Positions 285 through 61,541 of a stretch of DNA of 64,000 bases are shown piece by piece. Source of the DNA: Closterium sp. NIES-65 (Eukaryota > Streptophyta > Zygnematophyceae > Desmidiales > Closteriaceae); NCBI GenBank assembly GCA_948144175.1, contig CANXME010000212.1, positions 960,001 to 1,024,000 on the forward strand, given 5' to 3'. The position numbers were made by a program, and so were the translations under genes. The notes beneath the pieces were generated by a model. The model was not told where the DNA came from. It did not search any database and saw nothing but the letters and a program-made list of their open reading frames with translations. The stretch's first letter is position 1. Each line of letters begins with the position of its first letter.

Positions 285-428
285 GTGCTCATCCCCGCTA
301 GAGAATGCTTCCCAAGGGAGGAGGACGAGGAGAAGGACCCCAAGGACGACATGGTCAAGCTGGACCACCTGCACGAGCCGGGTGTGCTGCATAACCTCAA
401 GCGGAGATATGTGCGCAACGCAATCTAT
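285..428 (+). CDS. Myosin window exon 1, start of motor core
   Basis: Encodes [16 protein letters not shown] followed by [15 protein letters not shown] and ending RRYVRNAIY, the stretch leading into the motor core in plant myosins. Acceptor CAG at 282-284, donor GTAAGT at 429. Extra copies: 3-55 and 139-231 (5' part) upstream; 555-618 and 713-780 (3' part plus donor GTGAGT) downstream. Confidence 0.88.
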
Positions 429-3400
429 GTAAGTGGAAGGGTTTGTTCACAAGGTGGTGTGGTCGTGCTCTCAAACCCCCACTTGTCACTCACCTGCACG
501 AGCCTGGCATGAGGTGCCTCAATGCTGCACCACTCGCATGCCTTACAAGCTACACCACCTGCACGAGCCCGGCGTGCTGCGCAACCTCAAGCGGTGCTAC
601 GTGCGCAACGCCATCTACGTGAGTGGTAGTGCTTGATCGCTGGTAGTGCTTGATCGCTGGTAGTGCTTGATCGCAAGGTGGCCGTGCTTGCAAAGGCTGG
701 TGCGTCAATAGCTGGACCACCTGCACGAGCCATGCGTGCTGCATAATCTCAAGAGGCGCTACGTGTGCAACGGCATCTACGTGAGTGCTTGCATCCTGTT
801 AACGCCATCTGCCTGCCAGGCCTCGACCGGTATATTGACGATGGCCTTGTTACCTAGTCTCATGGCTGAAGGTACGTGAGTGAGTGCTTGCATCCTGTTA
901 ACGCCATCTGCCTGCCAGGCCTCGACCGGTATATTGACGATGGCCTTGTTACCTAGTCTCATGGCTGAAGGTACGTGAGTGAGTGCTTGCATCCTGTTAA
1001 CGTCTCATGGCCTCGAGCACCCACAGCTCAACTGCCATCTCATCCAATTCCCTTTCCGTCTCCTCTTCAATACTCTGCCTACCGTTCCCATACTCCCACC
1101 CATCCCAACCTACCCCAACCCCTGCAGACCTACACAGGCACCATTCTCATCGCAGTCAACCCCTTCATATACCTGCCAGGCCTGTACCACCCGCAGCTCA
1201 AGAGCCAGTACCGCAACGTACCACTCGGGCAGCTGAGCCCACACGTGTTTGCCATCGCTGACCATGCCTACAGGTATGTGAGCAAGTGTGTGTGCAGATG
1301 TGTGAGCATGGGTGTGTGTGTGTGAGAGAGTGGGTGTGTCCATGCACCTGGACGGACGTGATAGGTCTGATGCGTGCAGGTTGAGGTTGGGGCTGGCCTG
1401 TACCACCCACTGCTCAAGAGCCAGTACCACAACGTGCCACTGTTGCAGCTCAGCCCACACGTGTTTGCCATCGCTGCCCATGCCTACAGGTATGTGTGTC
1501 TGTATGCTTACAGGTATGCTTACAGGTATGTGTGTCTGTATGCTTACAGGTATGCTTACAGGTATGCTTACAGGTATGCTTACACATGCACACTCTCTCA
1601 CACACGCCCACACAATCCCTATCCCGCAGGTCGATGAGGGAAGCCGGGCGCAGGCAGCCGTTACTGATCAGTGGAAAGAGCCGCAATCCATCCCCTCACT
1701 CTCTCCGTCCCTTGGACCACCCACAACCTACGCTCTTTCTCACTGCCAAGCCCACTCGCCCTCCCTCCCCCGCAGGTCAATGCCCTCACTCCCCCGCAGG
1801 TCAATGCCCTCACTCCACGCTCTCACTGCCATGCCCTCACTCCACGATCTCACTGTGTCGGAAATACTCTGTATGGTCCCTTTCTCCTGACTCCCGCCGA
1901 CAATGCCTGTAGTTCCCCAGGTCTCCCTCCCCCCCTTCTCTCCTCTTGGCCTCCTCTCCTCCCACTCTCTCTTGCTATCGCTACTGGGGCACTACCAACG
2001 CCCTATCTGCTGTATACTGCGTGCCGTGTGACAGCGCTCCATCGTGATACCTCACTCAGAAAATCTCCTTCTCACTACCGGCTGACAAGCTGGTTCCCTA
2101 GCGTGCTCATGATTGCCTGCGACTGGGTTAACAGGATTACATTTGAGCAAAATGGGAAACATTCAACGAAGCAGCCAACACTAGGGTTTCAGCTCTGCTA
2201 TGTACAAGACGACCTTACTGCCCTAGCCTAGCGCTTCTAGCATGCACACATCACATGGGCGAGGCTCGGGGTGCCGAGCCATATTTACAAACCGCAGGCG
2301 CTCTGGATCTGCATGGGCTCCAGCGCAAGCCCTTCGCCAGCTGCAAGCATGGCGTGCATGTTCAACCGCAGCTTCTCACACCTGTCGGCTGTGCTGTGCT
2401 TATCCGCGTCAACAGCTCTCGCCCTGCACAGGACACAAACGAAACATACACCCACCCCAACTCATACACCCACCATTCTCATGCAAACATTCTTGAGTGT
2501 TATTTACAATTATGTACACCCACCCTTCTTCCCTCCGCCCTTTTAGACTCCGCTTCTGCTACGTCCTACCGCTCTCCCTGCTGCCAACTCTTGGCGCTGT
2601 CTCGGTTACTATGCGGCCCTCTTGGCTACATAAACCGCGACAACTGCCATGCCCTCACTCCACGCTCTCACTGCCATGCACACCCGCACACGCACATCCT
2701 CCCTCCCCCGCAGGTCAATGAGGGAGGCGGGGCGCAGCCAGTTGGTGCTGATCAGTGGGGAGAGTGGTGTCCCATCCCCTCGCTCTACACTCTCACTGCC
2801 ATGCACACTCACACACGCACATCCTCCCTCCCCCGCAGGTCAATGAGAGAGGCGGGGCGCAGCCAGTCGGTGCTGATCAGTGGGGAGAGCGGCGCCGGCA
2901 AGACAGAGACCACCAAGCTGGTCATGGAGTACCTGGCGGGGGCAGGGGTGGCGGGTCCTTGCCTCCACCCACCCTGCTGCTCTTTACTCCTCCTCCCCCT
3001 CACTTACTCCATCCCACCCTGCTGCCCTTTCGCCCCATCCCCTCCCTCTCTCCGTCCCTTTCACCCACCCACACCCCCATGCACTCACACTCCCCCCCCA
3101 ACCCCCCCCCCCTTTCCCCCCCACCCCCCTCCACCCCCCCCTCCCCCCCCCCCCACACACACACAAACACACACTTACAGGTCGATGAGGGAGGCGGGGC
3201 GCAGCCAGTCGGTGCTGATCAGTGGGGAGAGCGGCGCCGGCAAGACAGAGACCACCAAGCTGGTCATGGAGTACCTGGCGGGGGCAGGGGTGGCGGGTCC
3301 TTGCCTCCACCCACCCTGCTGCTCTTTACTCCTCCTCCCCCTCACTCACTCCATCCCACCCTGCTGCCCTTTCGCCCCATCCCCTCCCTCTCTCCGTCCC

Positions 3401-6400
3401 TTTCACCCACCCACACCCCCATGCACTCACACTCCCCCCCCAACCCCCCCCCCTTTCCCCCCCACCCCCCTCCACCCCCCCCCTCCCCCCCCCCCCACAC
3501 ACACAAACACACACTTACAGGTCGATGAGGGAGGCGGGGCGCAGCCAGTCGGTGCTGATCAGTGGGGAGAGCGGCGCCGGCAAGACAGAGACCACCAAGC
3601 TGGTCATGGAGTACCTGGCGGGGGCAGGGGTGGCGGATAAGGCTGCTGCTGCTGCTGCTGGGGCTGCAGGGGCTGTGGGCATGGGGGGCGGGAGGAGAGG
3701 GAGGCGGGGAGGGGTGGAAGCGGTTGTGTCTGCTGAATCGACCCAGTGTGTTGAGAGAGTGCTGCAGGTGAGTGGGGTGTGTCTGGAGCGGGTGTGGGGT
3801 TGAGTGTATGGCTGAGAAGGAATGGACACTCCTCCCCTCCCATTCTTTCCAGTGCAGCTCAATCTCTTTCCCCAGACTCCCCCACTCAAACACGCCCATC
3901 CCATTTCCTTCCTTCACTCCCTGCCCTCCTCATCCTCCTCTGCTGCTCGCCCCCCTCCTTCCCTCAACCCCCTCGTCCTCCCCCTTCCGCAACTTCCCTC
4001 GTCCCCCCCCCTTCTCACTTCTCCACCCCAGTCGAACCAAGTGCTCGAGACGTTTGGGATCGCCAAGGCAGTGCGCAATAACAACTCATCCCTCCTTGTC
4101 CTCTCAATCCCCCCTCCCCATCACCCTCTTCCCAACCCCTTCCCCCCTTCCTCCCTTCTCCTCCCAGTCGAATCAAGTACTGGAGACGTTTGGGAACGCC
4201 AAGACAATGCGCAACGACAACTCATCGCCCTTTCCCCTCATCCCCGATTGCCCCCTCATTCCCCCCTCTTTCCTCATCCCGCCTACCCCCTTCGTCCCCC
4301 TCCTTCCCTCCTCCACCCCAGTCGAACCAAGTCCTGGAGACGTTTGGGAACGCCAAGACAGTGCGCAATAACAACTCGAGGTAAGACCCCTCCCAGGCTC
4401 CTCAACAGGGGTTGCAGGGGTGGCAGAGCAGTCTCTTTTGTAAGTGAGGTTTTCTTTCATTGAGGTTCTCTTTGACAGTAATGGCATGGTGACACGAGTG
4501 GCAGGGGTTGCCAGGGTGACAGGGTGACAGCGATGGCAGGGTGGGAGGTGCAGGCGCTTCGCTGTCACCCACCTTCTTCGCCTTGGCAGCGATGGCCAAT
4601 TTGTACAGCCCCTTCTTCTGATGCGCTTTAACCAACCCTCGCACTCTTTCCTTTCCACGCCCTCTGCTGCCCATTATTTTCCAACCCCTCCCCCCCCTCA
4701 ACTTTTCCCCTACCTGCCTTCCTCCCCCATCCCTCTCCCTCCAGTCGTTTGCAAGTTCACTGAGATGTACATCGACAGCAAAAGCAGGGTGACAGGTGAC
4801 CCTGATACACCCGTCCCTTCCCATCCCACCCCCTCTGCTCTGCCCATTCTCCCCTTCTGCCTCTGCCCAATCGTTCCTTTTGCCCCAGTCGCTTTGGCAA
4901 GTTCATTGAGATTCACTTTGACAGCGATGGCAGGGTGACAGGAGCAGCCATTCGGTTGCCAAAGCCCCTGCTGAGCACCCTAAACTAACCTTGATACACC
5001 CTTTCTTCCCACACTCTCTGCCTTCTACCTCGCCCCCCAGTCGTTTCGGCAAGTTCATTGAGATTCACTTTGACAGTGACGGCCGAGTGACAGGGGAAGC
5101 CATTCTCCACGCCCTGTGCTCTGCCCATTCCCAACCTCGTCCCCACCCTCTCTCCCCCACCCCTCGCCCCCCAGTCGCTTTGGCAAGTTCATTGAGATTC
5201 ACTTTGACAGTGATGGCAGGGTGACAGGGGCAGCCATTCTCCATGCCCTGCGCTCTGCTCATTCTCCATCTCACCCCCCACCCACCCCTCGCCCCCCATC
5301 CTCATTCCACGACCCCTCTCCCGCCCACCCCTCCCCCACCAGTCGCTTCGGCAAGTTCATTGAGATTCACTTCGACAGCGACGGCAGGGTGACAGGGGCA
5401 GCTATTAGATCGTACCTGCTAGAGCGGTCCAGAGTGGTGCAGATCAGTAGCCCTGAGCGCTCCTACCACTGCTTCTATCAGCTGCTCTATGGGGCCACAC
5501 CCGAGGTGAGTGGGTGAGTGAGAAAGTGAGTGGAGGGAGAGAGTGAGTGAGTGAGGGTGCTGTGATGGTTTATGTGTGCGTTTAAGTCAACCTTCTTGGT
5601 ATGAAGTGGTGCAGCTTTATCACCCCAAGCGCTCCTATCACTGCTTCTATCAGCTACTCTATGGGGCTACACCCGAGGTAAGCGAGTGAGTCAGAGGATT
5701 GAGTGATTGAGGGTGTTGTGATGGTGTATGTGTGCGTTTGATTCAACCTTCCCGGTCCAGAGTGGTGCAGATCAGTAGCCCTGAGCGCTCCTACCACTGC
5801 TTCTATCAGCTACTTGGGCCACGCCCGAGGTGAGAGGACTTTTGAGTCGCCTCAGAAGTCACTTTGGTAGCCCCGAGCGTCCTATCACTGCTTCTACCAG
5901 CTGCCCTATGGGGCCACGCCCGAGGTGAGAGTGTGTGTGCGTTTGAGTCGACCTGGTTAAGAGTGGTGCAGCTTTCTAGCCCGGAGCGCTCCTATCACTG
6001 CTTCTATCAGCTTCTCTATGGGGCCACGCTCGAGGTGAGAGAGCGAGCGAGATAGTGAGTGAGCGAGTGAGTGAGTGGGTGAGGAGTTATAGAGGGAGTG
6101 AGTGAGGGAGTGAGGAGTTATTGAGGGAGTGAGGGAGTGAGGAGTGAGTGGGAGTGGGCGAGGGAGTGACGGGGAGAATACGCTTGTCAGTGCGACTTTT
6201 GAGAATACGCTTGTCAGTGCGACTTTTGAGAATTCTCAAAAGTCGCTCCAGAATACGCTTGTCGTTGGGCTGAGCTAAGCTAAGCGTTTCTGCCTCCCTT
6301 TCCTCGTTCCCTTTTTCCCTTTTCCTCCCTCCATTTTTGTCCACACGGTAAGAAGCAGAGAAGTATTTCCTCCTCACAGAGGTTGAGGCTTGAGCGTGCT

Positions 6401-9400
6401 TCAAAGCTCCTCTGGTTGACGTAGAGCAAAGCAACTGTTACGAGCTATGCACCTCCTTCTCCCTCCCCGTTGCCCCTTTCCTCCCTCCCCTATTCCCCCT
6501 GCCCTTCCTCCCCCCTCCCCCAACCCCCCTCAACCCCCCGCCTCCTCTTCCTTCCTGTCCACACGGACCACACCACACAGGAAGCAGAAAAGTATTCTTT
6601 GCCCACAGAGGGAGAGCGAGGAACAAATTTTTACTACTTGGCGCAGAGCGACTGCTACGAGCTGCCCGGAAAGAACAGCAACGCGATGGAGTATGAATCG
6701 ACACGCAACGCTATGAACGTGATGGGGTTCGACCCACGCGAGCAGGTGGGCCCAAGGTGGTGATCAATTTGAAAAGGCCCGCATGAACAGGTGAGAACTA
6801 GCTGCTGACTTTTGAGTCGACTCAAAAGTCAGGTGATGGGGTTCGACCCAAGCGAGCAGGTGGGCCCAAGCGGGTGATGAATTCAAAATGACCCTCACAC
6901 TCCCTCTCGCCCGCCCTTGCTTGCACTCGCACGCACGTCGGGGCTCTTGCATGCCCGCTGTGCCATGCCATACGACTTGCTGATGGGGTTCGACTTGCTG
7001 TGGGTGAGTGCAAGGATGGGAGTTGTGGGCAATGGGCATGGGCTGTGGGCTTCGAGTTGACTCAAACACACGCGGGAGCGGGTGAGTGCCCACAACCCTG
7101 TGCCCTGTTTCCCCATTCATTCCCCCCACCACCAGGAGGGCATACTCGCAGTGGTGGCAGCGATACTGCATCTGGGCAACGTGGAATTCATTCGACCCGA
7201 CCAGAGGGCACTGACGGGACAGCTGTTGCTCATGCTTCTCCCATTGCCGTGCCCCATTCCCTCATCACCCCATCACCCCATTCCCCACCACCAGGAGGGC
7301 ATATTCGCAGTGGTGGCAGGCATCATGCATCTGGGCAACATGGACTTAACGCAGCCGGAGAGCACGGATGGAGCAGGGCAGGGTGGGCAAACAACAGAGA
7401 GCAGAGGGCAGAGGGCAGAGGGCAGAGGGCAGAGGGCAGAGGGCAGAGGGCAGAGGGCAGAATCAGCTTGCCTTGGTCATGCGTTTGGCCCTTTCCCCCA
7501 ACCCCCTATCTCAGGAGGGCATATTCGCAGTGGTGGCGGCCATTATGCATCTGGGCAATGTGGATTTTACGCAGCTGGAGAGCACGGCTGTGCCGTGCTG
7601 TCGAACATGTTCGTGTTCGACCCGCCGCCGCCAAATGACCTTGTCGAACGACGAACGTGTTCGGGCGAACACCGAACATGTTCGCCCCGAACGATTTAGG
7701 CAAAAAATAAGCCTGTTCGGTTCGCCTCGAGCGTTCGTGAAGCTGCTCAACCCTAGGTTGGAGTCACGGGAGCGGGTGGGTGGATGCAAGGGGGTGAGTT
7801 GTGGGGATTGGGCATGGCTGGGCTGTGGCGTTCACCCAGCCGGAGAGCATGGAGGGGCGGGGCAGGGGAGACAGCAGAGAGCACAAATCAGGGAGCAGTG
7901 AGCGGAAAGTAGCACCCCTTGATCATGCTTTCGCCCCACTGACTCATTCCCTCATTCTCTCGTTTCCCCATATACTCCCCAACTTATTCCCCCACCACCA
8001 GGAGGGCATATTCGCAGTGGTGGCTGGCAGTCATAATGCATCTGGGCAATGTGGACTTCATGCAGCCAGAGAGCACGGATGGGACAGGCGAGCAGCCCTT
8101 CACTCATGCTCCTCACACCTGCTCTTCCACTCCTGCTCTTCACTCGTGCTCATTGCTGCCATCTCCCCCATCTCAGGAGGGCATATTTGCAGTGGTGGCG
8201 GCCATTATGCATCTGGGCAACGTGGACTTCATGCAGCCAGAGAGCACGGATGGCACAGGAGAGCTCCCCTCTCTGGTGGCAAAGAACGACAAGGCAGAGG
8301 CTGCAGTCAAGACTGTAGCACGCCTGCTCGAGTAGGTTTCGCCTGTGATGTGGGTGGTACCTGGGAAGGGGCCATGCGGTCAGCATGGGTGGGATGGGAT
8401 GAAAAGCCAGGAGAGCAGCCCCCTCTGGTGGTATTGAAATCACTTGTGAGAATTCTCAAAAGTGATTTCAATGAAGCCAGAAGAGCAGCCTCCTCTGGTG
8501 GCAAAGAACGACAGGGGGTGGGCTGTATGCTGCTGTCAGTGTGGGTGGCACCGTGGCATGGAATGGCGAGCAGAAGAGCAGCCTCCTCTGGTGGCAAAGA
8601 ACGACAGGGGGTGGGCTGTATGCTGCTGTCAGTGTGGGTGGCACCGTGGCATGGAATGGCGAGCAGAAGAGCAGCCTCCTCTGGTGGCAAAGAACGATAG
8701 GGGGTGGGCTGTATGCTGCTGTCAGTGTGGGTGGCATGGAATGGCGAGCAGAAGAGCAGCCTCCTCTGGTGGCAAAGAACGACAGGGGGTGGGCTGTATG
8801 CTGCTGTCAGTGTGGGTGGCATGGAATGGCGAGCAGAAGAGCAGCCTCCTCTGGTGGCAAAGAACGACAGGGGGTGGGCTGTATGCTGCTGTCAGTGTGG
8901 GTGGCACCGTGGCATGGAATGGCGAGCAGAAGAGCAGCCTCCTCTGGTGGCAAAGAACGATAGGGGGTGGGCTGTATGCTGCTGTCAGTGTGGGTGGCAT
9001 GGAATGGCGAGCAGAAGAGCAGCCTCCTCTGGTGGCAAAGAACGACAGGGGGTGGGCTGTATGCTGCTGTCAGTGTGGGTGGCATGGAATGGCGAGCAGA
9101 AGAGCAGCCTCCTCTGGTGGCAAAGAACGACAGGGGGTGGGCTGTATGCTGCTGTCAGTGTGGGTGGCATGGAATGGCGAGCAGAAGAGCAGCCTCCTCT
9201 GGTGGCAAAGAACGACAGGGGGTGGGCTGTATGCTGCTGTCAGTGTGGGTGGCATGGAATGGCGAGCAGAAGAGCAGCCTCCTCTGGTGGCAAAGAACGA
9301 CAGGGGGTGGGCTGTATGCTGCTGTCAGTGTGGGTGGCATGGAATGGCGAGCAGAAGAGCAGCCTCCTCTGGTGGCAAAGAACGACAGGGGGTGGGCTGT

Positions 9401-10768
9401 ATGCTGCTGTCAGTGTGGGTGGCATGGAATGGCGAGCAGAAGAGCAGCCTCCTCTGGTGGCAAAGAACGACAGGGGGTGGGCTGTATGCTGCTGTCAGTG
9501 TGGGTGGCATGGAATGGCGAGCAGAAGAGCAGCCTCCTCTGGTGGCAAACAATGATGGGGAAGAGCCTGCAGTCAACACAGTGGCACGCCTGCTAGAGTA
9601 GGTGGAGGGGAGGGTGCCTGTTGTTTGGGTGTTACCTGGGTAAGCGACGGGCGGTACTGTGCTTTCATCAGGCGAGCAACCTCTCCTGGTGGCCAAGAAC
9701 GACAAGGCAGAGGCCGCAGTTAAGACTGTGGCTCGCCTGCTCGAGTAGGTGGAGTGGAGGGCATGGCATGGCTATGGAGTAGATAGTACCTGGAAGGGGA
9801 TGGGCCCTCACTCGTTGTCCTCGTCGCTCCTCCGCCCACCTTCTACCCCTCATCCCCTTCCCCTCCCTCCTCAGGTGCGACGAAACCGCGCTGTGGGACT
9901 CGCTGGTCTCTCAGACGCGCAAGTTCGGGCGGGAGGTCATTAAGAGCCCGCTGGATCCCAAGAAGGCGTCAGTCAAGCGAGACACCCTCGCCAAGTTCCT
10001 TTACTCGCGCCTCTTCGACTGGTGGGTGCCTCCTCCAACCCCCGTGTCCTGTTCGAATGGTGAATGCTTGAGTCATATCCACAGCACCAAGCGAGACACC
10101 CTAAACCCTTAAACCTGGTGAGCTCGCCGTCCCAACCCCTTCTCTCGTTGAGTTTCATCCCAGTTCATGTGTTCTGTTCTTGATTGAAGAAGGGTTTTGA
10201 GACGTCTCAAAACCCTTCTTCAATCACGTGTTTATCCCAGTTCATGTGTTCTGTTCTTCCGCTGCTCCTCCCGTCCCCGCCACCAGGATTGTGTCAAAGG
10301 TCAATGAGAGCATCAGGCAGGACCCAAACCTCCTTGCTTCTCCTCACTAGCATGCCCACCTTTTACTGCTTCCACTCGCTGTCTCTCTGCCACCCTCTCT
10401 CTGCCACCCTCTCTCTGCCGCCAACAGGATCGTGTCAAAGGGTCAATGAGAGCATCCAGCAGGAAGGATCCCAACCATGCATCGGGCGGGCCCTGTCATC
10501 TCACTTCCCTTGCCACCCTGAGTTGATTCCACTCTCTGTCTGCCACTCTGCCTCCCGCCACCAAGATCGTGTCAAAGGTCAACGAGAGCATCGGCCAGTA
10601 CCCCAACCATACGCCTCCCTTTGTTGTGCCTTTGCTCTCCGTCTGTCTGCTGTTCTGTCTGCCAGGATTGTGTCAAAGGTCAACGAGAGCATCGGCCAGG
10701 ACCCCAACCACGCGTCCATCATCGGAGTCCTTGATATTTATGGCTTCGAGCACTTCAAAGTCAACAGG

Positions 10769-10802
<34 letters not shown>

Positions 10803-11060
10803 AGCGATGGGGAGGGGGGGGAGGGTGCATGCGTGTGTGTTGAGTCGACTCAATACAAACCACGCGTCCATCATTGGAGTCCTTGATATCTATGGCTTCG
10901 AGCACTTTAAAGTCAACAGGTGCGCATGCGTGTGTGTGTGTTGGGGAGGGGAGGGTGCATGCGTGTGTGTGGAGTCGACTCAAAGGAAACCACACGTCCA
11001 TCATCGGAGTCCTTGATATCTACGGCTTCGAGCACTTCAAAGTCAACAGGTGCGTGTGTG

Positions 11061-11130
<70 letters not shown>

Positions 11131-36802: not shown

Positions 36803-44310
<7,508 letters not shown>

Positions 44311-45895: not shown

Positions 45896-45898
45896 GCC

Positions 45899-47659: not shown

Positions 47660-47664
47660 CGTCG

Positions 47665-47798
47665 TGTCAAACATATGCATATATTATATTTGTGGGTAGG
47701 CTGTAGTGAGGTAGATACTGTGGGGTATAACTCCTTAGGGTTTTGTCCTTGTACCAATTCTCTCGATAGTCAGCTTCACTCATGCCTAGCTTCTAAGA
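47665..47798 (+). repeat. Copia 5' LTR
   Basis: TGTCAAACATATGCATA to AGCTTCTAAGA; pairs with 54423-54556. Confidence 0.9.
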
Positions 47799-48487
47799 TG
47801 GTATCTAGAGCAGTAGGTCTTTAGGACCTAAGTTTAGGGCCCACCAGTTACCACGTTACCTCACCTACGGCCTGGCCTGCCTCCCTGCCTTGCGTGCTGC
47901 CCGCGCGCGTATTGGCTACACGCGCGCGACCCCTTTTTTTTCCCGCGCGTGCCTCTTGAGCAGCCCGCGCGCAGCCCATTTTCGGCCCCGCGCGCCACGT
48001 CAGCCGCCCGCGCAGCCTGCCGCCGGCCCGCGCACCGCGTAAGCCGCCCACGCGCAGCCCGCTTAGGCCCTGCGCGCCGCATCTGCTGCCCGCGTAGCCC
48101 GCTTTCGGCCCCGCGCGCCGCGTCAGCTGCCCGCGCAGCCTGCCGCCGGCCCGCGCGCCGCGTCAACCGCCAGTGCAGCCCGCTGCTGCCCCGCGCGTCG
48201 CCTTCTCCGGTCGCGCAGCCCGCACCTGCTCTGCGCGCCGCCTTAGGAGCCAGCGCGCGGCTTACTGATTCACCGTGCGCCACTTTAGGAGCCCGCGTGC
48301 GGCCCGCAGCTGCACCGCGCACCGTTTTAGAGGCCCACGTGCAGCCCACTGCTGCCCTCCGTGCTGCCTTAGGAGTATGTGCACCGCCACTGCAGTCCGT
48401 GCGCCGCCACTGCAACCTTGCACGCAGTCTCTCCTTCCTTGCCTTTTGCCTTGCCGCCTGCACACTAGCCTTGCCTACGCTGCACGC
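47799..48487 (+). other. Copia leader, extremely GC-rich
   Basis: Primer-binding site then repeated cgcgcagcccgc/cgcgccgcgtcagc modules up to the gag ATG. Long overlapping frames here are compositional. Confidence 0.75.
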
Positions 48488-49498: not shown

Positions 49499-50331
49499 CA
49501 GCCGCAGCAGCGTCAGCGCCAAACCCCCACTTCCCAGCAGCTTCATGACTGGTATGCCGGGCGTGGGGCGTCTGGGGGTCCTGCCAGCTGCCCCTATATC
49601 ATTCGCGCAGGTCCCCGCGCTGGTTGCCAGTGCACCGGCTTTCACACTGAGTACCGCTCTTTCACTTGGCTTAGCGACGCCTGGCGCGTCAAGTTTCCTG
49701 ATGCTATTGAGTTCCCCAACTGGGCAGACCTGCTCAGGCGTGATGCACCTATCTTTGATCTTGACTATGATGCTATCCTTGCTGTCATGCTATCCGTCCT
49801 TCACGATCATTGGGTTGACACCTTTACTCCTGGAGAACAGCGTGTGGCGATCTGCACGTGCTCCCGGACCGGCCGTCACCTGGCCACGTTCACGTGTGCG
49901 CCTGGGTCCAGTCTGTACACCCTCACCATTGCGTCATGCTACACCCCTTTGTCTCCCCAGCTCTACACGTCTACTCAGGTAGCTACCCAGTGTGAGTGTC
50001 GCCGCCGTTGCACGACACTCTCAAGTGGCACCACCGCCTTGGTCACCCCTCCCTGCCTCGCCTTCGTAGCATGCACTCTCGCTTCCTGGTCTCTAGTCTT
50101 CCCAGGTCTCTGCCTGCCCTCCCTCCCTCGCCTGCGTCGCCCTGCGTTCCCTGCGTCGAGGGGCGGCAGCGCGCCGCCCCTCACTCCTCATTCCCTCCCA
50201 CAGAGGCTCCACTACAGACTCTCCACCTGGACGTGTGGGGCCCAGCCCGCGTTCGTGGACAGGGCCACGAGCGGTACTTCATGCTGGTCGTCGACGACTA
50301 CACGCGTTACACCACGGTCTTCCCCTTGTAG
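49499..50331 (+). pseudogene. Copia pol: pre-integrase and integrase start
   Basis: Readthrough frame gives LHDWYAGRG and DLDYDAIL, then FTPGEQRV-type pre-integrase. The frame changes near 49995-50030; HHRLGHPSLPRL and LDVWGPARVRGQGHERYF follow with LVVDDYTRY. No D-S/T-G-A protease motif found between gag and integrase. Confidence 0.82.
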
Positions 50332-50840
50332 CGCAAGGGGGGGGTCCCTGATGTTTTGATCCCCTCAATCCTCGCTGTTCGTCTCCAGCTCCGCGAGCAG
50401 TTCCAGTCGGACTTTCCTGTCCTACATCTGTACTCTGACAGGGGTGGTGAGTTCTCTTATACCTCTTGGCAGCCTTATGTGTGGAGCACGGCATCCGCCA
50501 GACGTTCACGCTTCCGACCTCTCCACAGCAGAATGGGGTTGCTGAGCGCCGCATTGGCTTAGTCATGGAGGTCGCCCGTACTTCCATGATCCATGCAGGT
50601 GCCCCCCATTTTCTGTGGCTGTTTGCGGTCCGGTACGGCGCGCATCAGCTCAACCTCTGGCCCCGTGTCTCCCTGCAGGAGACCTCGCCCACACTGTTGT
50701 GGACGGGTAAGGTTGGCAATGCGTCGCGTTTCCGGGTCTGGAGTGCTCGTGCCTATGTCCACAATACCACTGCGGACAAGCTCTCCGCCCGCGCCATTCC
50801 ATGCATCTTCCTTGGCTTTGTCCCTGACGCGCCTGGCTAG
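50332..50840 (+). pseudogene. Copia integrase core remnants
   Basis: LYSDRGGEF in one frame, then TFTLPTSPQQNGVAERRI in another (50466-50840) up to CIFLGFVPDAPG-stop. The D..E catalytic pattern is recognisable but frames are broken. Confidence 0.85.
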
Positions 50841-52669
50841 CAGTTTTACGACCCTGCCTCGCGCCGTGTCTTTCCGTCTTAAGATGTCACCTTTGACGAG
50901 TCCGTCCCCTTTTACCGTCTCTTTCCCTACCGCACTGCCCTGCGCCCCCCCCCCGCCGCTCTTTCTCGCCCCAGGTCCTCCCCAGGTAGACCCCCTCCCC
51001 GCGCCAGGTCCTGCTCCTTCAGGTGTTTCTCAGGTAGACCCTCCCGTGCCTGCGCCTGTTGAGGTCAATAGTGACTCAGGTCCTGCTGGGGGTGGTGCTG
51101 TCTTTGGGGGTGCTGGGCCTGGGGGTGAGGAGCTTAGGGGTGCTGAGCTTGGGGGTGGGGAGCTTGGGGGTGCTGAGCCTGGGGGTGCGGAGCCTGCGCG
51201 TGAGGACCCACGAGGTACTGAGCCGGGGGGTGCGGAGTCTGGGGGCGCTGAGCCTGAGCGTGAGGAGCCTGGAGGTGCTGAGCTTGCACGTGAGGAGCCA
51301 GGAGGTCCTGAGCCTGGGGGTGCTGTGTTTGGAGGTGCTGAGTCTGGGCGTGAGGAGCGTGGGGGTACTGAGTCTGGGGGTGCGACGCCTGAGGGTTCTG
51401 AGTCTGCTGCTGCGCGGTCTCCTTGGAGGAGCCGCCTTCATCCGCGTGTGCCTCTCACCTCACATCAGCTGCACGACTAGTACGGTCGCCGTCAGGGTCG
51501 CGCTTCTGGAGCTCGGGGCTCTGCTGTTGGAGGTACTTCTGCTGACATCACTGGAGATGGGAGTGGTGCTGGTCCTTTGTCTACAGGAGGGGCTAGAGTT
51601 GCTGGTCCCCGAGGTGTTCGTACTGGAGGTACTGGAGCTGCTGGGGCTGGAGGTACTGTATCTGAGGGTGCTACTGCTGGAGTCCCTAGGTCTGGGGGTG
51701 CTGCTGCTAGAGGAACTGAGGCTGGAGACCCTAGGCCTAGAGAAGCCGGTTCTGGGGGTGCTGCAGGTGGTGGAGCTGGTCCTGGAGAAGCTGGCGTCGA
51801 GGGTTTAGGAGCTGCTGGAGGTGCTGGAGCTGCTGAGGGATATGGAGCTGCTGGAGGTGCTGGAGCTGTTGAGGGTACTGGAGCTGCTGGAGGTGCTGGA
51901 GCTGCTGGTGATGGTGGCACTGCACAACCGCGCCTGTTCTTTGCTCCGCCGTCTCCGTCGTCTCTGCCACCGCGTGACTTTGCGCTTCGCCAGGTTCTCA
52001 GTCTCCCTTCGTCTACTGGTCTTCTGTTACAGCCTAGCTCGCCGCTACCTGCTCCTTCTCCTTACACTGAGCAGACAAGGGGCCTTGCTCAGCATCGTGA
52101 GCCTGCATCGCGTCCTGTCTCGTCTGTCCGTTCTCGTCGTTCCGGTCGTTCCGGTCGTCATGTTGCTTGTCATGCGTCAGCCGGCTGTCCCCGGCACCCA
52201 CCTTGTAGTCCGTCATCCTTCCTCTCCTCCTCAGCGTGTTCCTCTGCCTTCTCCCCCTGCATCCTCTCCACCTGATGTTGCGGACCCTGAGTCTGACTAG
52301 TTTCGAACTGAGCACCCTACTGTCATGCGTCTGTTAGCCACTGTAGTCACTGACCCGTCATTTGAGTCCACTGTTACGTCTGCCCTAGTCGCTGAGCTTG
52401 TCGACTTTGCTGCTGCGTGTTGTTTAGACTACGGTGCTAGTCTTGTTGCTGAGTCTGAGTCTATCTCTCTGCAGTCAGTCGGGGGTGAGTGTGCTCTTAG
52501 CACGGACGTCCTTGAGGACAGGCTCGAGCACCTTGAGTGTCTTGCGGCCGCTGCGCCTCATCTCGCGGCCATGCTGCTTGCCCCTGAGAGGGACGCGGAT
52601 GCACCAGACATCCCGACCCCACGCTCTTACGCTGAGGCGATCGCGGGCGAGTACTCTTCTCAGTGGTAG
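50841..52669 (+). pseudogene. Copia hinge: Gly/Glu/Ala repeat region
   Basis: Repeats of GGAELGGAEPGGAE type (50881-51480) and GAAGGAGA type (51577-51950), then SPYTEQ and LLATVVTDPSFESTVTSA to DIPTPRSYAEAI. Stops at several points. Confidence 0.8.
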
Positions 52670-52675
52670 ACAGCC

Positions 52676-53728
52676 ATGGACGCAGAGATGGCATCCTGGA
52701 AGTCCACAGGCAGCTACGTCGATGAGGTTCCCCCTCCCGGGGCGAACATCGTCGACGGCATGTGGATTTTCAAGGTGCAGCGTCCGCCAGGTTCTCCGCC
52801 AGTCTTCAAGGCTTGTTACGTTGCTCGAGGATTCAGTCAGCAAGAGGGAGTTGACTTCTTCCAGACCTTCTCCCCCACCCCGAAGATGACCACTCTTTGG
52901 GTGCTGCTGCACATAGCCGCTCAGCGTGACTACGAGCTTCACTCTCTTGACTGCAACACAACTTTCTTTCAGGGCAGCCTGCACGATGAGATCTGGCTGC
53001 GCCGCCCGCCTAGCTTCACTGGGTCGTTCCCTCCTGGTACCCAGTGGAGCCTTCAGCAACCGGTCTACGGTCTCCGCCAGGCGCCATGTGAGTGGCACGA
53101 CACAGTGAGGACGACACTTGCGGCTCTTGGGTTTGCTCCCTCGACTGCTGACCCGTCGCTGTTTCTGCACTCCGACACTTCGTTGCCGCCGTTCTACATC
53201 CTTGTGTACGTCGACGACTTGGTCTTTGCCACTGCTGACATTGAGGCTCTCGCCCTGGTGAAGTCGGAGTTGCAGAAGAGACACACGTGCACAGACCTGG
53301 GTGAGCTGCGCAGTTACCTTGGCTTGCAGATCACCCGGGACAGAGCACGCCGCACCATCACACTGACTCCATCACACATGGTGCAGCAGGTCCTTCAGCG
53401 CTTCGGCTGCACCTGGTCCTCAGCACAGGCCACTCCTCTGGCTACAGGTCACTCGTTCTCAGCTCCACCTTCGGACGAGTCCGTAGAGCCGAGTGGTCCT
53501 TCCCTAGAGCTAGTTGGCTGCCTCATGTACGTGATGACATGTACTCATCGTGACCTTGCGTACCCTCTTAGGCTTCTGGCTCGCTACGTGGCTCATGGTT
53601 GGCACCGAAAGGTGCACATGGATGCTGCTAAGAGGGTACTACGCTACTTGTGTAGTACATCAGGCATGGGGCTCGTGCTTGGAGGACGGGGCGACGTTGT
53701 CTTCACTAGGCACTTGGACGCTTCTTAG
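52676..53728 (+). pseudogene. Copia reverse transcriptase
   Basis: Long frame with FKACYVARGFSQQEGVDF, TFSPTPKMTTLWVLL, LVYVDDLVFA (catalytic YVDD) and LGLQITRDR. Ends at a TAG just after VVFTRHLDAS. Upstream pol is out of frame. Confidence 0.92.
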
Positions 53729-54172
53729 GTTGACGACCAGTCTACGTAGCGGTCGTCACAGGGTTAGACCTTCAGTCTTGGCTCTGGCTCTATTTCTTGG
53801 CGGTCTACTCACTCGTCTTCTGTTCTCGGCTCTAGTTGTGAGGCTGAGATCTACGCCACAGCCATGGCTGCACAGGAGTTACGCTGGCACACCTACCTGC
53901 TGACCGACTTGGGAGAGAGGCCTCGTTCTCCTCCAGTTCTGTACGTCGACAGCAAGGCAGCCATTGCCTTGTGTGAGGAGCAAAGAACGAAGCACATCGC
54001 TCTGCGTTACTTCCTGGCTCGAGAGTTGCAGCAGTGGGGTCAGCTTTGTCTCGCTCACGTGGCCAGTCGGGCCAACAGTGCTGATATATTCACCAAGGCA
54101 CTTCCGTCTGGTGATCATCAGCGCTTTTGTACTTTGTTGGGCCTTGTGCCTACGTTTCCACACTTGCTGTAG
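53729..54172 (+). pseudogene. Copia RNase H
   Basis: ISWRSTHSSSVL-like residues with stops, SCEAEIYATAMAAQELRW, then LYVDSKAAIALCEE and RANSADIFTKALPSGDHQ ending at 54172. Confidence 0.88.
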
Positions 54173-54422
54173 ACACTGTTTGTACTGTGATATATATATA
54201 TATACATATATATATTTATTTATATACCTGCATGCTTGCTCTTGCTAGGTAGAGATCACTGTACTGTTCTTGCTGCATATATATCTTTGCATGTGAACTG
54301 GCCTTATTGTCTTTCGCTTGTGCTCAGTGTGTGTGGTGACTTTGTGCTCCACCCTGAGCTTGCTTTGCTTTCTTAACTGGTCTTGTGACCTCTTGCTCTC
54401 CCCCACTTTGCCTATGGGGGTG

Positions 54423-54556
54423 TGTCAAACATATGCATATGTTATATTTGTGGGTAGGCTGTAGTGGGGTAGATACTTTCGGGTATACCTCCTTAGAGTT
54501 TTGTCCTTGTACCAATTCTCTCGATAGTCAACTTCACTCATGCCCAGCTTTTAAGA
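54423..54556 (+). repeat. Copia 3' LTR
   Basis: 134 bp, same length as the 5' LTR with about a dozen differences, so the insertion is not recent. Confidence 0.9.
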
Positions 54557-54561
54557 CGTCG

Positions 54562-56194: not shown

Positions 56195-57596
56195 TGTCAG
56201 AATGTTATGTTATCTAGCCTGCAGTGGGGTGCTCTATAGCGAGCACAACCCAGTTAGGGTTTGCTATATGTATCCCAACTGCTGCTAGTGAAACCCCTCC
56301 TTTCTTCATTCTTACTTTCTACTGTTAGTTCTGACATGCTATCAGAGCAGGTCGATCCCTTTGGGTCGATCCTGTGGGTGGGCCCACCACCTAAAGCTTC
56401 TGCTGCTCTACTGGTGTGGCGCGCCCCGAGCGTGCTACCCTTTCTTTCTGCCGCGCGTCTGCTGCGCGCGGCGGTTTTCCTCTGAGGCGCGCGCCCGGGG
56501 GGGCGCGTGGCCCTTTCTTCTTCCTGGCGCCCCCTGGCGAGCCGCGCGCTGCCCCCGCCCGTCCGTCGCGGGGCCCTGAGGAGTTGCGCGCGGCCCCCCG
56601 CCCGTCCGTCGCGGCACCGTGGGGAGCCGCGCGCTGCCCCCGCCCGTCCGGCGCGACGCCCTGGGGAGTCACGCACGACCCCCCGCTGCCCCGTCGCGCC
56701 GCCATGGGGAGCCGCACGCGGCCCCGTGCTGCCCCGTGGTGGCGCCCTGGGGGCTGCGCGCCGTCCCCTCCGCTGTCCCCCCGCGCTCCTGCCCCTTGCA
56801 ACCTGTTTTAGGGTTTTGGGCTGAGGAGTGTGGGGGTGGCGGTTGTGGGGGTGCCCGTTGTGTGCGCCGTCCCCTACTCCTCCTCCTCCTCCGTCTCCCG
56901 CTGCTGCAGCTGCCGCTCAGGGGGGTGTGTGTGTGGGAGCCGTGAGGAGTGGAACTATGGGGGTGATGTGGGAGTGGAGCTAGGGGTAAAACTAGGGGTG
57001 TGTGTAGGGGGGTGTGGGACTGCTTGGGAAGGTTGAGTGGAGGCTGCTGTCTTGTCGTCCGCAGCACCTGTAGTCCAGGGCGCACTGTCCTGGTAGCCCA
57101 GAGTGTCTACTACGCCTGTCGTCCGTGGGTCCGTTGCTCCTGTAGCTCCTCGTAGCACGTGAGCCAGTTACTCCAGTAGTCCGGGGCGCTGTCTCGGTAG
57201 CCACTGTGCCAACAGCTCCTATTGCCTGTGTGTCTACAACTTCAGCCGTTGTCTCCCATCTCCTCTCCTCTCACAGTCCCTCCTCCTCCTCACTTGCCCG
57301 TTGTGACTACCACTAGCTTTGCTCATAATTGTGAGCTTTAAACTATTGCTTCTTGTAATTGTGCTCAGAATGTGTGGTGACATTGTGATCCACCCTGAGC
57401 TTGTTCTGCTTTGCTTACTGTGCTGATTACACCCCACTTTGGCTATGGGGGTGTGTCAAAATGTTATGTTATCTAGCGTGCAGTGGGGTGCTCTATAGCA
57501 AGCACAACCCAGTTAGGGTTTGCTATATGTATCCCAACTGCTGCTAGTGAAACCCCTCCTTTCTTCATTCTTACTTTCTACTTCTTGTTCGTAACA
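56195..57596 (+). mobile_element. Non-autonomous LTR element in a PME exon
   Basis: 1,402 bp with LTRs 56195-56336 and 57454-57596 (142/143 bp) and target duplication GCCGC (56190-56194, 57597-57601). Primer-binding-like tgctatcagagc follows the first LTR. The interior is a GC-rich copia-type leader plus a 3' tail resembling that of the 47-kb copia element (ccaccctgagcttg, ccccacttt-g-ctatggggg), with no gag or pol. It looks like an internally deleted copia derivative. Confidence 0.92.
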
Positions 57597-57900: not shown

Positions 57901-57974
57901 AAATACTTTACCCATCTCCTGCGTCTCATGAGTATTCATCTCTTCTCCCTTTCTACTCTCCCTTCTTTTCGGAG

Positions 57975-58534
57975 GCGGTAATTGCTTCCGCACCTATGAA
58001 AGGCACGTTCGTTATATTCGTCAAGAAAGGAGTGTACGTGGAGCAGATTCTATTTGACAAACTAGGGATTGTTCCGGTGGGAGAGGGAATGGGCAGGACT
58101 ATCATCACTAACAACAAAAATGTGGTTGGCGGATCCACCACCTTCAACTCTTCTACCATTGAGCACTCCCCTTCCATCTCTCTTCCTCTCTCCCAATCTG
58201 GTGGGATTGTTTTGGTGGGAGAGGAACGGGCAGGACTATCATCACTAACAAAAAGAATGTGGTCGGCGGATCCACCACCTTCAACTCTGCTACCATTGGT
58301 CTCTCCCTCTCTCAGCTTCTCTCCCTCTCTTAGCTCCTCTCCTTCTCTCAGCTTCTCTCCCTCTCTCAGCTTCTCTCCCTCTCTTAGCTTCTCTACCTCT
58401 CTCAACTTCTCTCCCTCTCTCATCTTCTTTCCCTCTCTCAGCTTCTCTCCCTTTCTCCTTCTCTTCTCCTGTCATCACTGGCAAGAAGAGTATGGTTGGA
58501 AAATCCACCACCTTCAACTCCGCTATCATTGGCA
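57975..58534 (+). CDS. PME: PME exon 3 and two donor-side copies
   Basis: AVIASAPMKGTFVIFVKK, GVYVEQILF, VGEGMGRTIITNNKNVVG and STTFNSSTI to about 58160. Its own donor is lost; copies at about 58203-58293 (donor G|GTCTCT) and 58465-58533 (G|GCAAGC) retain one. A ctctctcagctt repeat lies at 58310-58450. Confidence 0.75.
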
Positions 58535-58774
58535 AGCAATCTCCCTCTCCACTCCTCTCCTTTTCCTCTCTCCCTCCTTTCCCTCTCTCGCAACCTCTTC
58601 TCCTACTTCGCGCTCTATCCCTCCTCTCTCCCCTTACAGCTCATTCGTCAATTTCAAATCCTGCCTCCTTCTCTTTCCATCGCTATGGCTACCTGACTCC
58701 CCTTCTCTCTACTCTCTCCTCCCCTATCCCTCTCCCGCCATCTCCCTCCTTTCTTGCTTGTGTATCTACCCCAG

Positions 58775-59040
58775 GTACCAACAACAACATGCTTACCACC
58801 CTGGGCATCACAGTCCGCCACACTGCCGGGACAGCGGGCCCGCAGGCAGTAACTCTGCGCTCCCTCCTCTCTCCCCCCTCCCAGGTGCCAACAAGGGCAT
58901 CTTTACGGCCCTCGGAATCACCGTGTGCAACACGGCCGGGACAGTGGGCCAGCAAGCAGTGGCGCTGCACTCCAAAGACCTCTCAGCCTTCTTCAAGTGC
59001 GAGTTTGACGGCAACCAGGACACGTTGTACCCTCACAGCA
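58775..59040 (+). CDS. PME: PME exon 4, two copies
   Basis: A copy near 58775-58860, then 58885 onward: ANKGIFTALGITVCNTAG, GQQAVALHSKDLSAFFK and FDGNQDTLYPHS. The second copy lacks a GT donor at its end. Confidence 0.78.
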
Positions 59041-59094
59041 TAGTACCCCCTCTCACCCTCACCCCGCCACCTTCCCTCCTCCCCATCTCCCTCT

Positions 59095-59096
59095 CC

Positions 59097-59167
<71 letters not shown>
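59095..59167. repeat. CT microsatellite
   Basis: Uninterrupted (ct)n of about 70 bp in the intron. Confidence 0.95.
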
Positions 59168-59173
<6 letters not shown>

Positions 59174-59189
59174 GTTCCCCCACCACCAG

Positions 59190-59616
59190 GCGCCAACAAA
59201 GGCATGTTTACGGCCCTCGGACAGTGCGCAACACGGCCAGGACAGCGGGCCAGCAAGCAATGGCTCTATGCTCCGAAGACCTTTCCGCGTGTTTCGAGTG
59301 CGAGTTTGACAGCAACCAGGACACGCTCTACCCTCATAGCGGGCGGCAATATTTGCGTGACTGCAAAGTGGGCGGCACTGTGGATTTCATCTTCGGGAAA
59401 GGAGCGGCCGTGTTTGACTGCCCGCAAATCAGGCTTCATAAGGACGATCCGGTGATCATCACGGCGCCTTAGAACGACCCCACATACCCGGAACCCAAGG
59501 GGATCATTATCAGGAATGCAATGATCAGTGCCGATGCGGGGGTGGGGAAGGCTTACCTGGGTTGGCCGTGGACCAACACTAGCAAGGCCGTTTTCATCAA
59601 CTGCTTCCTTCCCAAG
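59190..59616 (+). CDS. PME: PME catalytic exon
   Basis: QDTLYPHSGRQYLRDC, GTVDFIFGKGAAVFDC, stop TAG at 59470, then GIIIRNAMISAD, YLGWPWTNTSKAVF and FLPK with donor GTGAAG. Acceptor CCAG; a 4-base deletion near 59220 shifts the start relative to the 58885 copy. Confidence 0.82.
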
Positions 59617-60024
59617 GTGAAGCACGCTTGGGCCGCGGTCGAGGGATACAAGTTTTGTCTGAGCCATTTCCTTTACCACCACCTCCACCTCATGGTTCCC
59701 CACTCCCACACTTTCCTCTCCCTCCTTCCCTTCCCCCTTGCCAGGAAATCTAACTGAAAGCTACACGCTGTACACCTGAAGCTTCAATCCCTCATGCTCC
59801 CCCCCCCCCCAAACCGTTCCCCCCTGCTCCCCTCCCCCCCCCTCCGTTCCCTCCCCTTGCTCTTCCCCCCTGCTCTCCCTCCTTCCCTCCCTGTCAGGAA
59901 ATCTAACCGAATGGGTGGATGACGATCATGAAGCTTCTTACTCCAACTCATTAGCTCTTTCCACCACTCTCCCACCTCATCTCCCCATCCCCTCTCTTCC
60001 CTCCCCCCCTTTCCCCCCTCCCAG

Positions 60025-60243
60025 GAGATCCAGCCGGACGGGTGGATGACGTGGGACACGGACACCATGAGGCTCGCCCGGAAGAGCGGCGTCTATTTCG
60101 CCGAGTTCCAGAGCACGGGGCCCGGAGCGCGCATGCCGCGCGCCAGCTGGGTGTCGCCGCAGAGGATTGTTAACCCGAGGCGATTCACGGCCGAGGCTTT
60201 CCTGGGATGGACGCGCAAAGGCTGGGCGGGGATGGGGGCTTGA
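60025..60243 (+). CDS. PME: PME last exon
   Basis: EIQPDGWMTWDTDTMRLA, VYFAEFQSTGPGARMPR and FTAEAFLGWTRKGWAG to TGA, matching the C-terminus of pectinesterases. Partial start copies at about 59743 and 59895. Confidence 0.85.
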   Translation, partial: EIQPDGWMTWDTDTMRLARKSGVYFAEFQSTGPGARMPRASWVSPQRIVNPRRFTAEAFLGWTRKGWAGMGA

Positions 60244-60269
60244 CCTAGTACTTGTCTCTTCACTCACTG

Positions 60270-61541
60270 TCGCGTGCCAGCTGGGTGTCGCCGCAGAGGA
60301 TTGTTAACCCCGGGAGGTTCACAGCAGAGAAATTCCTGGGATGGACAAGCAAAGGCTGGGCGGGCATGGGGGCCTAGCTTAACGTGTTGGTTGGTGTTGC
60401 TTTTGAGGTGCGCATGCTGCGCGCCAGCTGGGTATCGCCGCAGAGAATTGTTAACCCCGGGCGATTCACGGCCGAGGCTTTCCTAGGATGGATGCGGAAA
60501 GGCTTGGCAGGGATGGGGGCCTGACCTAGTACTTGTCTCTTCACTCACTGCCGCGTGCCAGCTGGGTGTCACCGTAGAGGATTGTTAACCCCAGGAGGTT
60601 CACGGTAGAGAAATTCCTGGGATGGACGAGCAAAGGCTGGGCGGGCATGGGGGCCTAGCTTAACGTGTTGGTTGGTGTTGCATTTGAGGCGCGCATGCCG
60701 CGTGCCAGCTGGGTGTCGCCGCAGAGGATTGTTAACCTCGGACGATTCATGGCCGAGGCTTTCCTCGGCTGGACGCGCAAAGGCTGGGCGGGGATGGGGG
60801 TCTGATGTTGGCAACAGCGGAAAGTGGTGGGCTGGGGGGGGGTGAGGGGGGAACAGGGACCTGACGTTGTACTTGTCTCTTCACTGCTGCGTGCCAGCTG
60901 GGTGTGTTTTGATTTGACTCAAAAGTCACCGCGTGCCAGCTGGGTGTCGCCGCAGAGGATTGTTAACCCCGGGCGATTCACGGCCGAGGCTTTCCTCGGA
61001 TGGACGAACAAAGGCTGGGCGGGCATGGGGGCTTAACTTTGTTTCTTCGCTGCTACGTGCCAGTTGGGTGTCGCCGCAAAGGATTGTTGACCCCGGGCTT
61101 TTCACGGATGAGGCTTTCCTCAGATGGACGAGCAAAGGCTGGGCGGGCATGGGGGCTTAACGTTGTTTCTTCGTTGCTACGTGCCTGATGGGTGTCGCCG
61201 CAAAGGATTCTTAACCTCGGGCTTTTCACGGCCGAGGCTTTCCTCGGATGGACGCGCAAAGGCTGGGCGGGAATGGGGGCCTGACCTAGTATTTGTCTCT
61301 TCGCTCACTGCCGCGTGCCAGCTGGGTGTCAGTGGTGGACTGGGGGGGGGAGGGGTGGGGGGGGGGGGGGGGGGGGGGGGGGCAGGGGGGTGGGGGGTGT
61401 TTGAGGGCCTGACGTTGTACTCGGTTCTCCGCTGCCACGTGCCAGCTGGGTGTCGCCGCAGACGATTGTTAACCCCGGGCAATTCACGGCAGAGGCTTTC
61501 CTCGGCTCGATGCGCAAAGGCTGGGCGGGGATGGGGAAGTG
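60270..61541 (+). repeat. Array of PME 3'-end copies
   Basis: About eight further copies of ASWVSPQRIVNPGRFTAE to GWAGMGA-stop, spaced roughly 100-240 bp, at about 60276, 60421, 60558, 60703, 60937, 61059, 61180 and 61438. Each keeps its stop. A palindrome remnant gatttgactcaaaagtc lies at about 60910 and a poly-G run at 61355-61382. Confidence 0.9.

Follow-up and report, generated by a model that had tools for sequence, protein, structure and literature searches.

We analysed a 64,000-nucleotide stretch of the genome of the alga Closterium sp. NIES-65 (contig CANXME010000212.1, positions 960,001 to 1,024,000 of the forward strand; hereafter the window), in which a myosin XI gene carries, beside most of its exons, partial copies of those exons together with a splice border. 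The window has a base composition of 57% G+C and contains no N, and Rfam and ARAGORN scans of it returned no matches. Further along lie genes that, on the strength of sequence searches, we take to be ALG10, an acylphosphatase and a PME-like gene.

Twenty myosin XI exons between 285 and 22461 on the plus strand were delimited using open frame, phase and GT-AG borders. AG and GT borders are present at all 20 and the reading frame is unbroken in every one. Exon lengths range from 58 to 247 bp and intron lengths from 202 to 2247 bp. A short exon expected between exons 11 and 12, and tail exons beyond 22461, lie outside this curated set. The joined exons encode a protein whose best matches are plant and charophyte myosin XI, with E values of 9e-209 against 7dhw (myosin motor domain) and 2e-194 against 7kch (unconventional myosin heavy chain), structures that we presume to be from Arabidopsis and Chara, respectively.

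Half-exon copies in the myosin XI gene

Using each exon with 40 bp on either side as a query (E<=1e-5) and counting matches that span an exon border, we recovered 53 partial copies at 26 of the 40 splice borders, in arrays of one to four. All 27 copies consisting of an acceptor and exon start lie upstream of their own exon, and all 26 consisting of an exon end and donor lie downstream. Acceptors and donors are affected equally (13 of 20 each), and no copies of exons 8, 10 and 14 were recovered with these queries. The count excludes interior fragments that reach no border, 12 of which are units of an 85-bp array derived from exon 7, and three weak border matches. One of these is an upstream acceptor-type match of exon 6 with AA in place of AG (E=1e-4); the second, of acceptor type at exon 12, lies downstream and is thus out of order (E=2e-3); the third is a downstream donor-type match of exon 20 (E=3e-5). 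Queries with 300-bp flanks produced some alignments that traverse whole exons through slippage from unit to unit; none did so with 40-bp flanks.

Exon-only queries at E<=1e-5 gave 66 local plus-strand matches, no minus-strand matches and two distant matches, both to a low-complexity part of exon 3. Direct nearby copies, as expected from tandem duplication, thus account for 66 of the 68 matches. At E<=1e-3 there were 75 local plus-strand, 46 minus-strand (2 local) and 7 distant plus-strand matches, and all 53 matches outside the local plus-strand class derive from exon 3. Copy junctions are abrupt, the exon part ending and different, mostly intron-like sequence following, as in tandem arrays, and the alignments by our reading indicate a spacing or unit size of mostly about 100-240 bp. 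In five of the eight arrays of three or more copies, divergence from the exon stays level or rises with each step away from it (0, 2, 6 and 16% for exon 3), the exceptions being the acceptor and donor arrays of exon 5 and the acceptor array of exon 9. The half-exon copies are real, dense, local and direct.

At the start of the gene (all coordinates plus strand; spans include exon and copies), exon 1 (285-428; span 112-787) has an acceptor copy at 112-231 and donor copies at 546-648 and 710-787, and exon 2 (1128-1273; span 1128-1518) has a donor copy at 1395-1518. Exon 3 (3521-3767; span 1609-3767), which encodes the P-loop GESGAGKT, is preceded by acceptor copies at 1609-1684, 2674-2767, 2799-2954 and 3139-3296, the nearest identical to it across 116 exon bases and the farthest 16% different. 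The acceptor copies of exon 4 (4322-4380; span 3996-4380), at 3996-4087 and 4131-4223, each hold 56 of its 59 bases and end just before the donor. Exon 5 (5343-5505; span 4705-6073) has four copies on each side: acceptor copies at 4705-4796, 4885-4952, 5028-5104 and 5146-5238, and donor copies at 5605-5705, 5753-5837, 5867-5939 and 5955-6073. The donor copy of exon 6 (6581-6745; span 6581-6897), at 6833-6897, lies directly 3' of a perfect 28-bp palindrome at 6805-6832.

Exon 7 (8177-8331; span 7118-9750) has acceptor copies at 7118-7222, 7283-7377, 7503-7590 and 7988-8099 and donor copies at 9507-9640 and 9669-9750. The 85-bp array downstream of it (8478-9549), made of about 12 units that are 97% alike and derive partly from the middle of exon 7, is a duplication turned minisatellite. 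Exon 8 (9875-10021) and exon 10 (11616-11673) have no copies. Between them, exon 9 (10666-10767; span 10283-11372) has acceptor copies at 10283-10330, 10385-10483 and 10535-10618, the last with AA for AG, and donor copies at 10858-10941, 10988-11088, 11191-11286 and 11303-11372, every one of them preceded by the palindrome GAGTCGACTC. Exon 11 (13019-13120; span 12860-13255) has an acceptor copy at 12860-12920 and a donor copy at 13170-13255, and exon 12 (14654-14780; span 14654-15397) has donor copies at 14897-14990, 15075-15162 and 15325-15397.

Further downstream, a single acceptor copy (15474-15545) precedes exon 13 (15619-15783; span 15474-15783), and exon 14 (15986-16117), which follows the shortest of the 19 introns (202 bp), has none. 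Exon 15 (16661-16770; span 16386-16911) has an acceptor copy at 16386-16474 and a donor copy at 16858-16911; exon 16 (18173-18239; span 17975-18239) has an acceptor copy at 17975-18044. Exon 17 (19067-19235; span 18445-19637) has acceptor copies at 18445-18515, 18812-18880 (its AG falling in an alignment gap) and 18914-18996, and donor copies at 19372-19505 and 19540-19637, the latter with three stop codons. The donor copies of exon 18 (20829-21034; span 20829-21375) are at 21101-21221 and 21255-21375. Exon 19 (21680-21778; span 21510-22009) has an acceptor copy at 21510-21607, a donor copy at 21842-21934 and an extra exon-end copy at 21954-22009, outside the 53, whose GT comes five bases later. 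Exon 20 (22369-22461; span 22076-22787) has an acceptor copy at 22076-22130 and donor copies at 22529-22643 and 22696-22787.

The palindrome TTTTGAG-NN/NN-CTCAAAA has 35 matches in the window at up to 3 mismatches, with 0.46 expected, for example at 6805-6832, 10179-10228, 13474-13517, 18605-18808, 34744-34851 and 43433-43456. Its centres (TCGA, ACGT, AATT, GCGC) and outer arms vary among sites, which are largely self-complementary throughout. It often stands between tandem copies, above all the donor copies of exons 5, 6 and 9, and lies near 11 of 26 donor copies and 1 of 27 acceptor copies (5.6% expected). As a cause of the duplications we rejected it, since it is near only 12 of the 53 copies. 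Insertion of an introner-like element or transposon does not describe the copies either, as they are local to their own exon and the palindrome is near few acceptor copies. As a separate observation, introns in the myosin region (1-22900), judged by eye on the coding strand, tend to start G-rich (GTGAGTGGG...) and to end C-rich (CCCTCCCCCAG), so that both ends of one intron could pair as RNA.

Copies in other genes and neighbouring repeats

Five exons of ALG10 and the acylphosphatase gene, both on the minus strand, yielded 11 copies, all in the same order relative to their exons. ALG10 exon e (about 42319-41983, its start placed by eye) has one donor copy at 41929-41810, and exon f (40790-40260) has an acceptor copy at 41753-41645 and a donor copy at 40188-40089, exons e and f together spanning 40089-42319. 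Exon h (38173-38025; span 37188-38839) has five upstream exon-start copies between 38839 and 38154, one of which aligns as far as the exon end through a tandem shift, and two downstream exon-end copies (37428-37370 and 37257-37188), both of which have lost the donor GT. Exon b has no copies. The acylphosphatase exon (46680-46547; span 46377-46680) has one donor copy at 46472-46377.

The original prediction held that, with few exceptions, acceptor copies precede and donor copies follow the intact exon, and this order was borne out in 53 of 53 myosin copies and 11 of 11 in the two minus-strand genes. Its wider statement, that nearly every exon of four genes is accompanied by copies, stood for 17 of the 20 myosin exons, three of four ALG10 exons and the one acylphosphatase exon; it did not extend to myosin exons 8, 10 and 14 or to ALG10 exon b, and in the PME-like gene (57969-60240) a comparable layout was seen by eye only. 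In that gene the fullest exon copy (from about 59190) is frame-shifted near its start relative to an upstream partial copy and meets a stop at about 59470. We therefore left its copies uncounted; the gene looks broken.

Other repeats lie around these genes. Frames of gag-pol type at 47664-54556 are flanked by 135-bp direct repeats (47664-47798 and 54422-54556) that are 93% identical, and presumably belong to a Copia-like retrotransposon, a family name based on motifs. Just before the PME-like gene, at 56195-57590, 137-bp direct repeats (95.6% identical) surround about 1.1 kb, which is perhaps a small non-autonomous long terminal repeat element. The end of the window (62059-64000) contains long GC-rich repetitive open frames, and a second gag-like frame at 63239-64000, similar by eye to the frame at 48.3-49.5 kb.

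Strength and retention of the copied splice sites

Splice sites were scored with a weight matrix derived from the 20 real sites. The donors in the copies, here called decoys, average 8.2 (8.4 for real donors) and decoy acceptors 10.6 (8.8 for real acceptors), and only 2-3% of intronic GT or AG dinucleotides reach the real median. Compared pairwise with the site of its own exon, a decoy donor tends to score a little lower (higher in 3 of 26 pairs, P=0.015) and a decoy acceptor a little higher (in 18 of 27, P=0.026).

The GT is kept in all 26 and the AG in 25 of 27 border-spanning copies. This retention (51 of 53) exceeds that of an internal AG/GT control (85%, P=0.03) and that in neutral simulations (81-82%, P about 0.002). 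The apparent selection for AG and GT, initially significant, was weakened by the two ALG10 copies without GT and by four exon-start fragments that lack the acceptor (two from exon 5, one each from exons 7 and 17); the search favours copies that reach the border, and adding the four gives 25 of 31 for AG and 51 of 57 overall (P 0.08). We saw no sign of selection destroying decoy sites and no firm sign of selection keeping them. Use of the decoys as read-through exons was rejected, as an open, in-frame reading exists in only 4 of 53.

How such sites might be handled depends on whether splice sites are paired across exons or across introns. Proximity effects on this choice have been studied in what are reportedly human genes. 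Work with a database of alternative splice sites and with minigenes found that long flanking introns go with a preference for the pair nearest across the exon and short ones with a preference for the pair nearest across the intron, the switch lying near 250 nt (PMC9225289). For Volvox, intron definition is described as probable for its many short introns (PMC4378016). The myosin gene falls in the size range of exon definition, with exons of 58-247 bp and 18 of 19 introns above 250 bp.

In a layout of several acceptors, the real exon and several donors, no acceptor-donor pair is shorter than the real exon. If splice sites are paired across exons, decoy donors with decoy acceptors behind them would add no exon. 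Decoys may be tolerated because the innermost pair, always the real exon, wins. The proximity rule, though not derived from algae, fits the layout found here, the innermost pair being the one preferred between long introns in that study (PMC9225289). We infer that this organism splices by exon definition, which would ignore the decoys; intron definition would choose them. The original prediction spoke of an array of competing splice sites at almost every junction: as judged by sequence, the decoys do score like real sites, but under exon definition their layout predicts that they mostly lose.

Origin and meaning of the copies

The order of the copies is a consequence of geometry and of survival of the open reading frame; it is not a splicing rule and not evidence for decoy function. 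If a gene is written A B C, where A is the intron end, B the exon start and C the rest of the exon, doubling of A B would give A B A B C. Since C is contiguous with the second B alone, a partial acceptor copy must sit upstream, and the donor case is the mirror image. In the process we propose, small tandem duplications, with units mostly about 100-240 bp, would arise often in the introns of this genome and accumulate there. A unit lying across an acceptor would leave an acceptor with exon start upstream of the exon, and a unit across a donor would leave an exon end with donor downstream. A unit that breaks the exon, or doubles a whole exon with both sites, would be lost by selection, which is itself part of the model.

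Simulations of neutral, uniform tandem duplication, in which exon-breaking or exon-doubling events were discarded in one mode and whole copies were kept in the other, reproduced this order. With whole-exon copies forbidden, wrong-order copies made up 0.2-1.3% and were absent from 41 of 48 runs; with whole-exon copies allowed, they made up 6.0-7.5% and were absent from 5 of 48. We therefore rejected the order as a functional rule, as geometry suffices. The earlier suggestion that duplications spanned the splice boundaries and that copies breaking exons were lost agrees with these simulations, which give the observed order. Wrong-order copies, named in the original prediction as evidence that would count against it, are a test of duplication and not of decoying.

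None of the 53 myosin copies is a whole exon with both splice sites, as would be seen in tandem whole-exon duplication or mutually exclusive exons, and the proposal that short exons can be copied whole found no example in this set. Given the lengths of units and exons (ratio 590/3799), the 26 arrays, if independent, should have yielded about 4 whole copies (Poisson P about 0.02). Partial copies are tolerated and whole ones probably not, as would follow if splicing included any duplicated exon that has both an acceptor and a donor.

The concentration of copies at exons is probably for the most part a visibility effect. Old intron-only duplications would have faded, whereas conservation of the real exon would keep exon-bearing copies legible, so that duplications seem tied to exons. 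With exons and decoy exons masked and the listed minisatellite regions left out, intron-only duplications cover 12, 10, 16, 15, 15, 8 and 11% of bases at 1-50, 51-100, 101-200, 201-300, 301-500, 501-800 and >800 bp from an exon. When minisatellites are included, duplications take up 21% of the sequence lying no more than 60 bp from a splice site, real or decoy, and 35% of that at 151-600 bp. A laxer search recovered 19% of bases beside duplicated acceptors (760 bp) and 31% beside duplicated donors (769 bp), and 0% beside unduplicated borders (420 bp each, 840 bp in total). Because recovery is low even at borders known to be duplicated, this profile is compatible with about equal densities of duplication in intron interiors and at borders. 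A naive simulation, with 37-72% intron coverage against the 8-16% seen, had seemed to demand exon enrichment, a demand weakened by the 19-31% recovery of real intron halves. The visibility argument rests on this calibration at duplicated borders, not on a fitted model, and some true border enrichment, by our guess up to about two-fold, may exist.

Taken as a whole, frequent tandem duplication in introns, a survival filter, visibility and exon-paired splicing form the account that we favour, with somewhat better than even confidence. Several results weigh against it. Simulated duplications leave copies at no more than 15-21 of 40 borders, where the gene has them at 26. At similar exon identity the simulations recover 57-65% of intron halves, and they recover 59-66% of intron-only duplication, far above the window; beside unduplicated borders they find 13-18%, against 0% of 840 bp in the window. 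The divergence of the decoys from the real exons is likewise not what neutral copies would give. Differences at 0-fold and 4-fold sites are 0.055 and 0.238 (ratio 0.23, bootstrap 0.18-0.28; 0.26, 0.22-0.30, for 60 copies with interior ones included), where about 0.5 or more would be expected, and codon positions 1 and 2 over position 3 give 0.28, against 0.68-0.76 in neutral simulations. Differences found only in copies fall 47:32:76 over the codon positions in a loose count (n=155), and those between the closest pairs of copies 4:5:15 (n=24). Indels occur at 0.005 per base in the exon parts against 0.025 in adjoining intron (intron-flank alignment without anchoring), where neutral copies should show about half. 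No stop codon was found in the 60 copies including interior ones, and the 53-copy set has only three, all in one poor copy.

Other measures of divergence look neutral. Missense chemistry is not clearly different from random (mean BLOSUM62 -0.11 over 94 changes, expected -0.29, P=0.13), and 19 of 22 indels break the frame. Singletons in inner copies fall 8:9:12 over the codon positions in a strict count (n=29); strict and loose counts disagree, and the strict ones are small. CpG mutation was rejected as the source of the missense deficit, which persists outside CpG (0.045 against 0.189), and gene conversion between copy and exon would by our reasoning lower silent and missense changes alike, leaving the ratio unexplained. 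The deficit of missense changes is unexplained by the neutral account, though chemistry and indels look neutral.

It may be that the copies are instead pieces of diverged functional versions of the gene, either alleles or other copies of the gene, acquired again and again through recombination able to start only in exons, the only parts still similar between versions. Such copies would have been functional for about half the time since their split from the present exon and decaying since. Missense changes and stops would then be scarce while silent divergence is near normal, independently of CpG sites, and this reading would accommodate the neutral-looking measures as well. In anchored alignments, moreover, the intron halves resemble one another little more than unrelated intron ends do: on the acceptor side 0.74-0.75 against 0.60 at 7-30 bp and 0.63 against 0.63 at 31-45 bp, and on the donor side 0.67-0.69 against 0.61-0.62 at 7-45 bp. 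Copy-number variation is also rampant in Closterium, affecting about 30% of genes even between mating strains according to the genome report (PMC10407611). We nevertheless think this explanation unlikely. The youngest exon 3 copy is near-identical in both exon (116/116) and intron (297/300), so that at least some copies are plain tandem duplications, and in copies binned by divergence 4-fold differences start low (0.06) and rise with 0-fold differences, without the offset expected from a diverged source. If it were true, exon borders would be genuine hot spots of duplication, each array would be a fossil record of past alleles, and splicing would tolerate dozens of full-strength spare splice sites per gene.

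Diverged versions could also enter through the assembly, if contigs of diverged alleles or gene copies were joined unmerged to give false tandem half-exons; the copies do look like diverged functional versions, and units of 100-240 bp are near short-read length. We consider such an artefact improbable, more so than recombination between versions, because errors need not respect an order in which no exon of 20 is frame-broken and no copy of 53 is a whole exon, and because up to four units occur with mostly graded divergence, the junction palindromes of exon 9 are shared and the window contains no N. Of similarly low probability, in our judgement, is a function for the decoys as alternative or brake splice sites, or as U1/U2 binding sites that regulate splicing. 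Their scores equal those of real sites and their GT and AG are retained above the neutral level, but the retention loses significance once acceptor-less fragments are counted, two ALG10 donor copies have no GT, most decoys would shift the frame or meet a stop, and missense chemistry looks random.

Single cases of related rearrangements are known. In potato RdRp, tandem duplication of a segment running from the 3' part of an intron into the 5' part of the next exon is described as having given a new intron (PMC4974935). Its layout is that of the acceptor copies here, and an 83-bp tandem duplication is also described in its first intron. According to the same account it was one recent event, with ten differences between copies and a new intron whose splicing is documented by 106 RNA-seq reads; in the present case a single gene holds tens of copies, most of them older and lying both before and after its exons, as read from the DNA sequence. 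The Rogers model, as that account describes it, likewise alters exon-intron structure by tandem duplication, but requires an exonic AGGT segment and makes a new intron (PMC4974935), whereas here existing introns are lengthened. The Closterium report concerns the same kind of zygnematophyte alga, with much duplication and a mean intron of about 485-554 bp, but its excerpted text deals with whole-gene copies and does not mention sub-exon tandem copies (PMC10407611). We found no description of comparable density in the open-access literature searched, mostly as listings, where only single cases appeared. What is unusual here is the number and age of the copies.

The arrangement is real and striking, and its order comes from tandem duplication and survival of the gene, not from a designed decoy system. 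If the density seen here is genome-wide, Closterium would offer a natural experiment in splice-site choice, with dozens of near-equal competing sites per gene in a layout where pairing across exons and pairing across introns should give opposite results. Gene finders run on genomes of this kind would then place exon ends wrongly. Introns would be continually rebuilt by small tandem duplications, and the exons would be the only legible record of that process.

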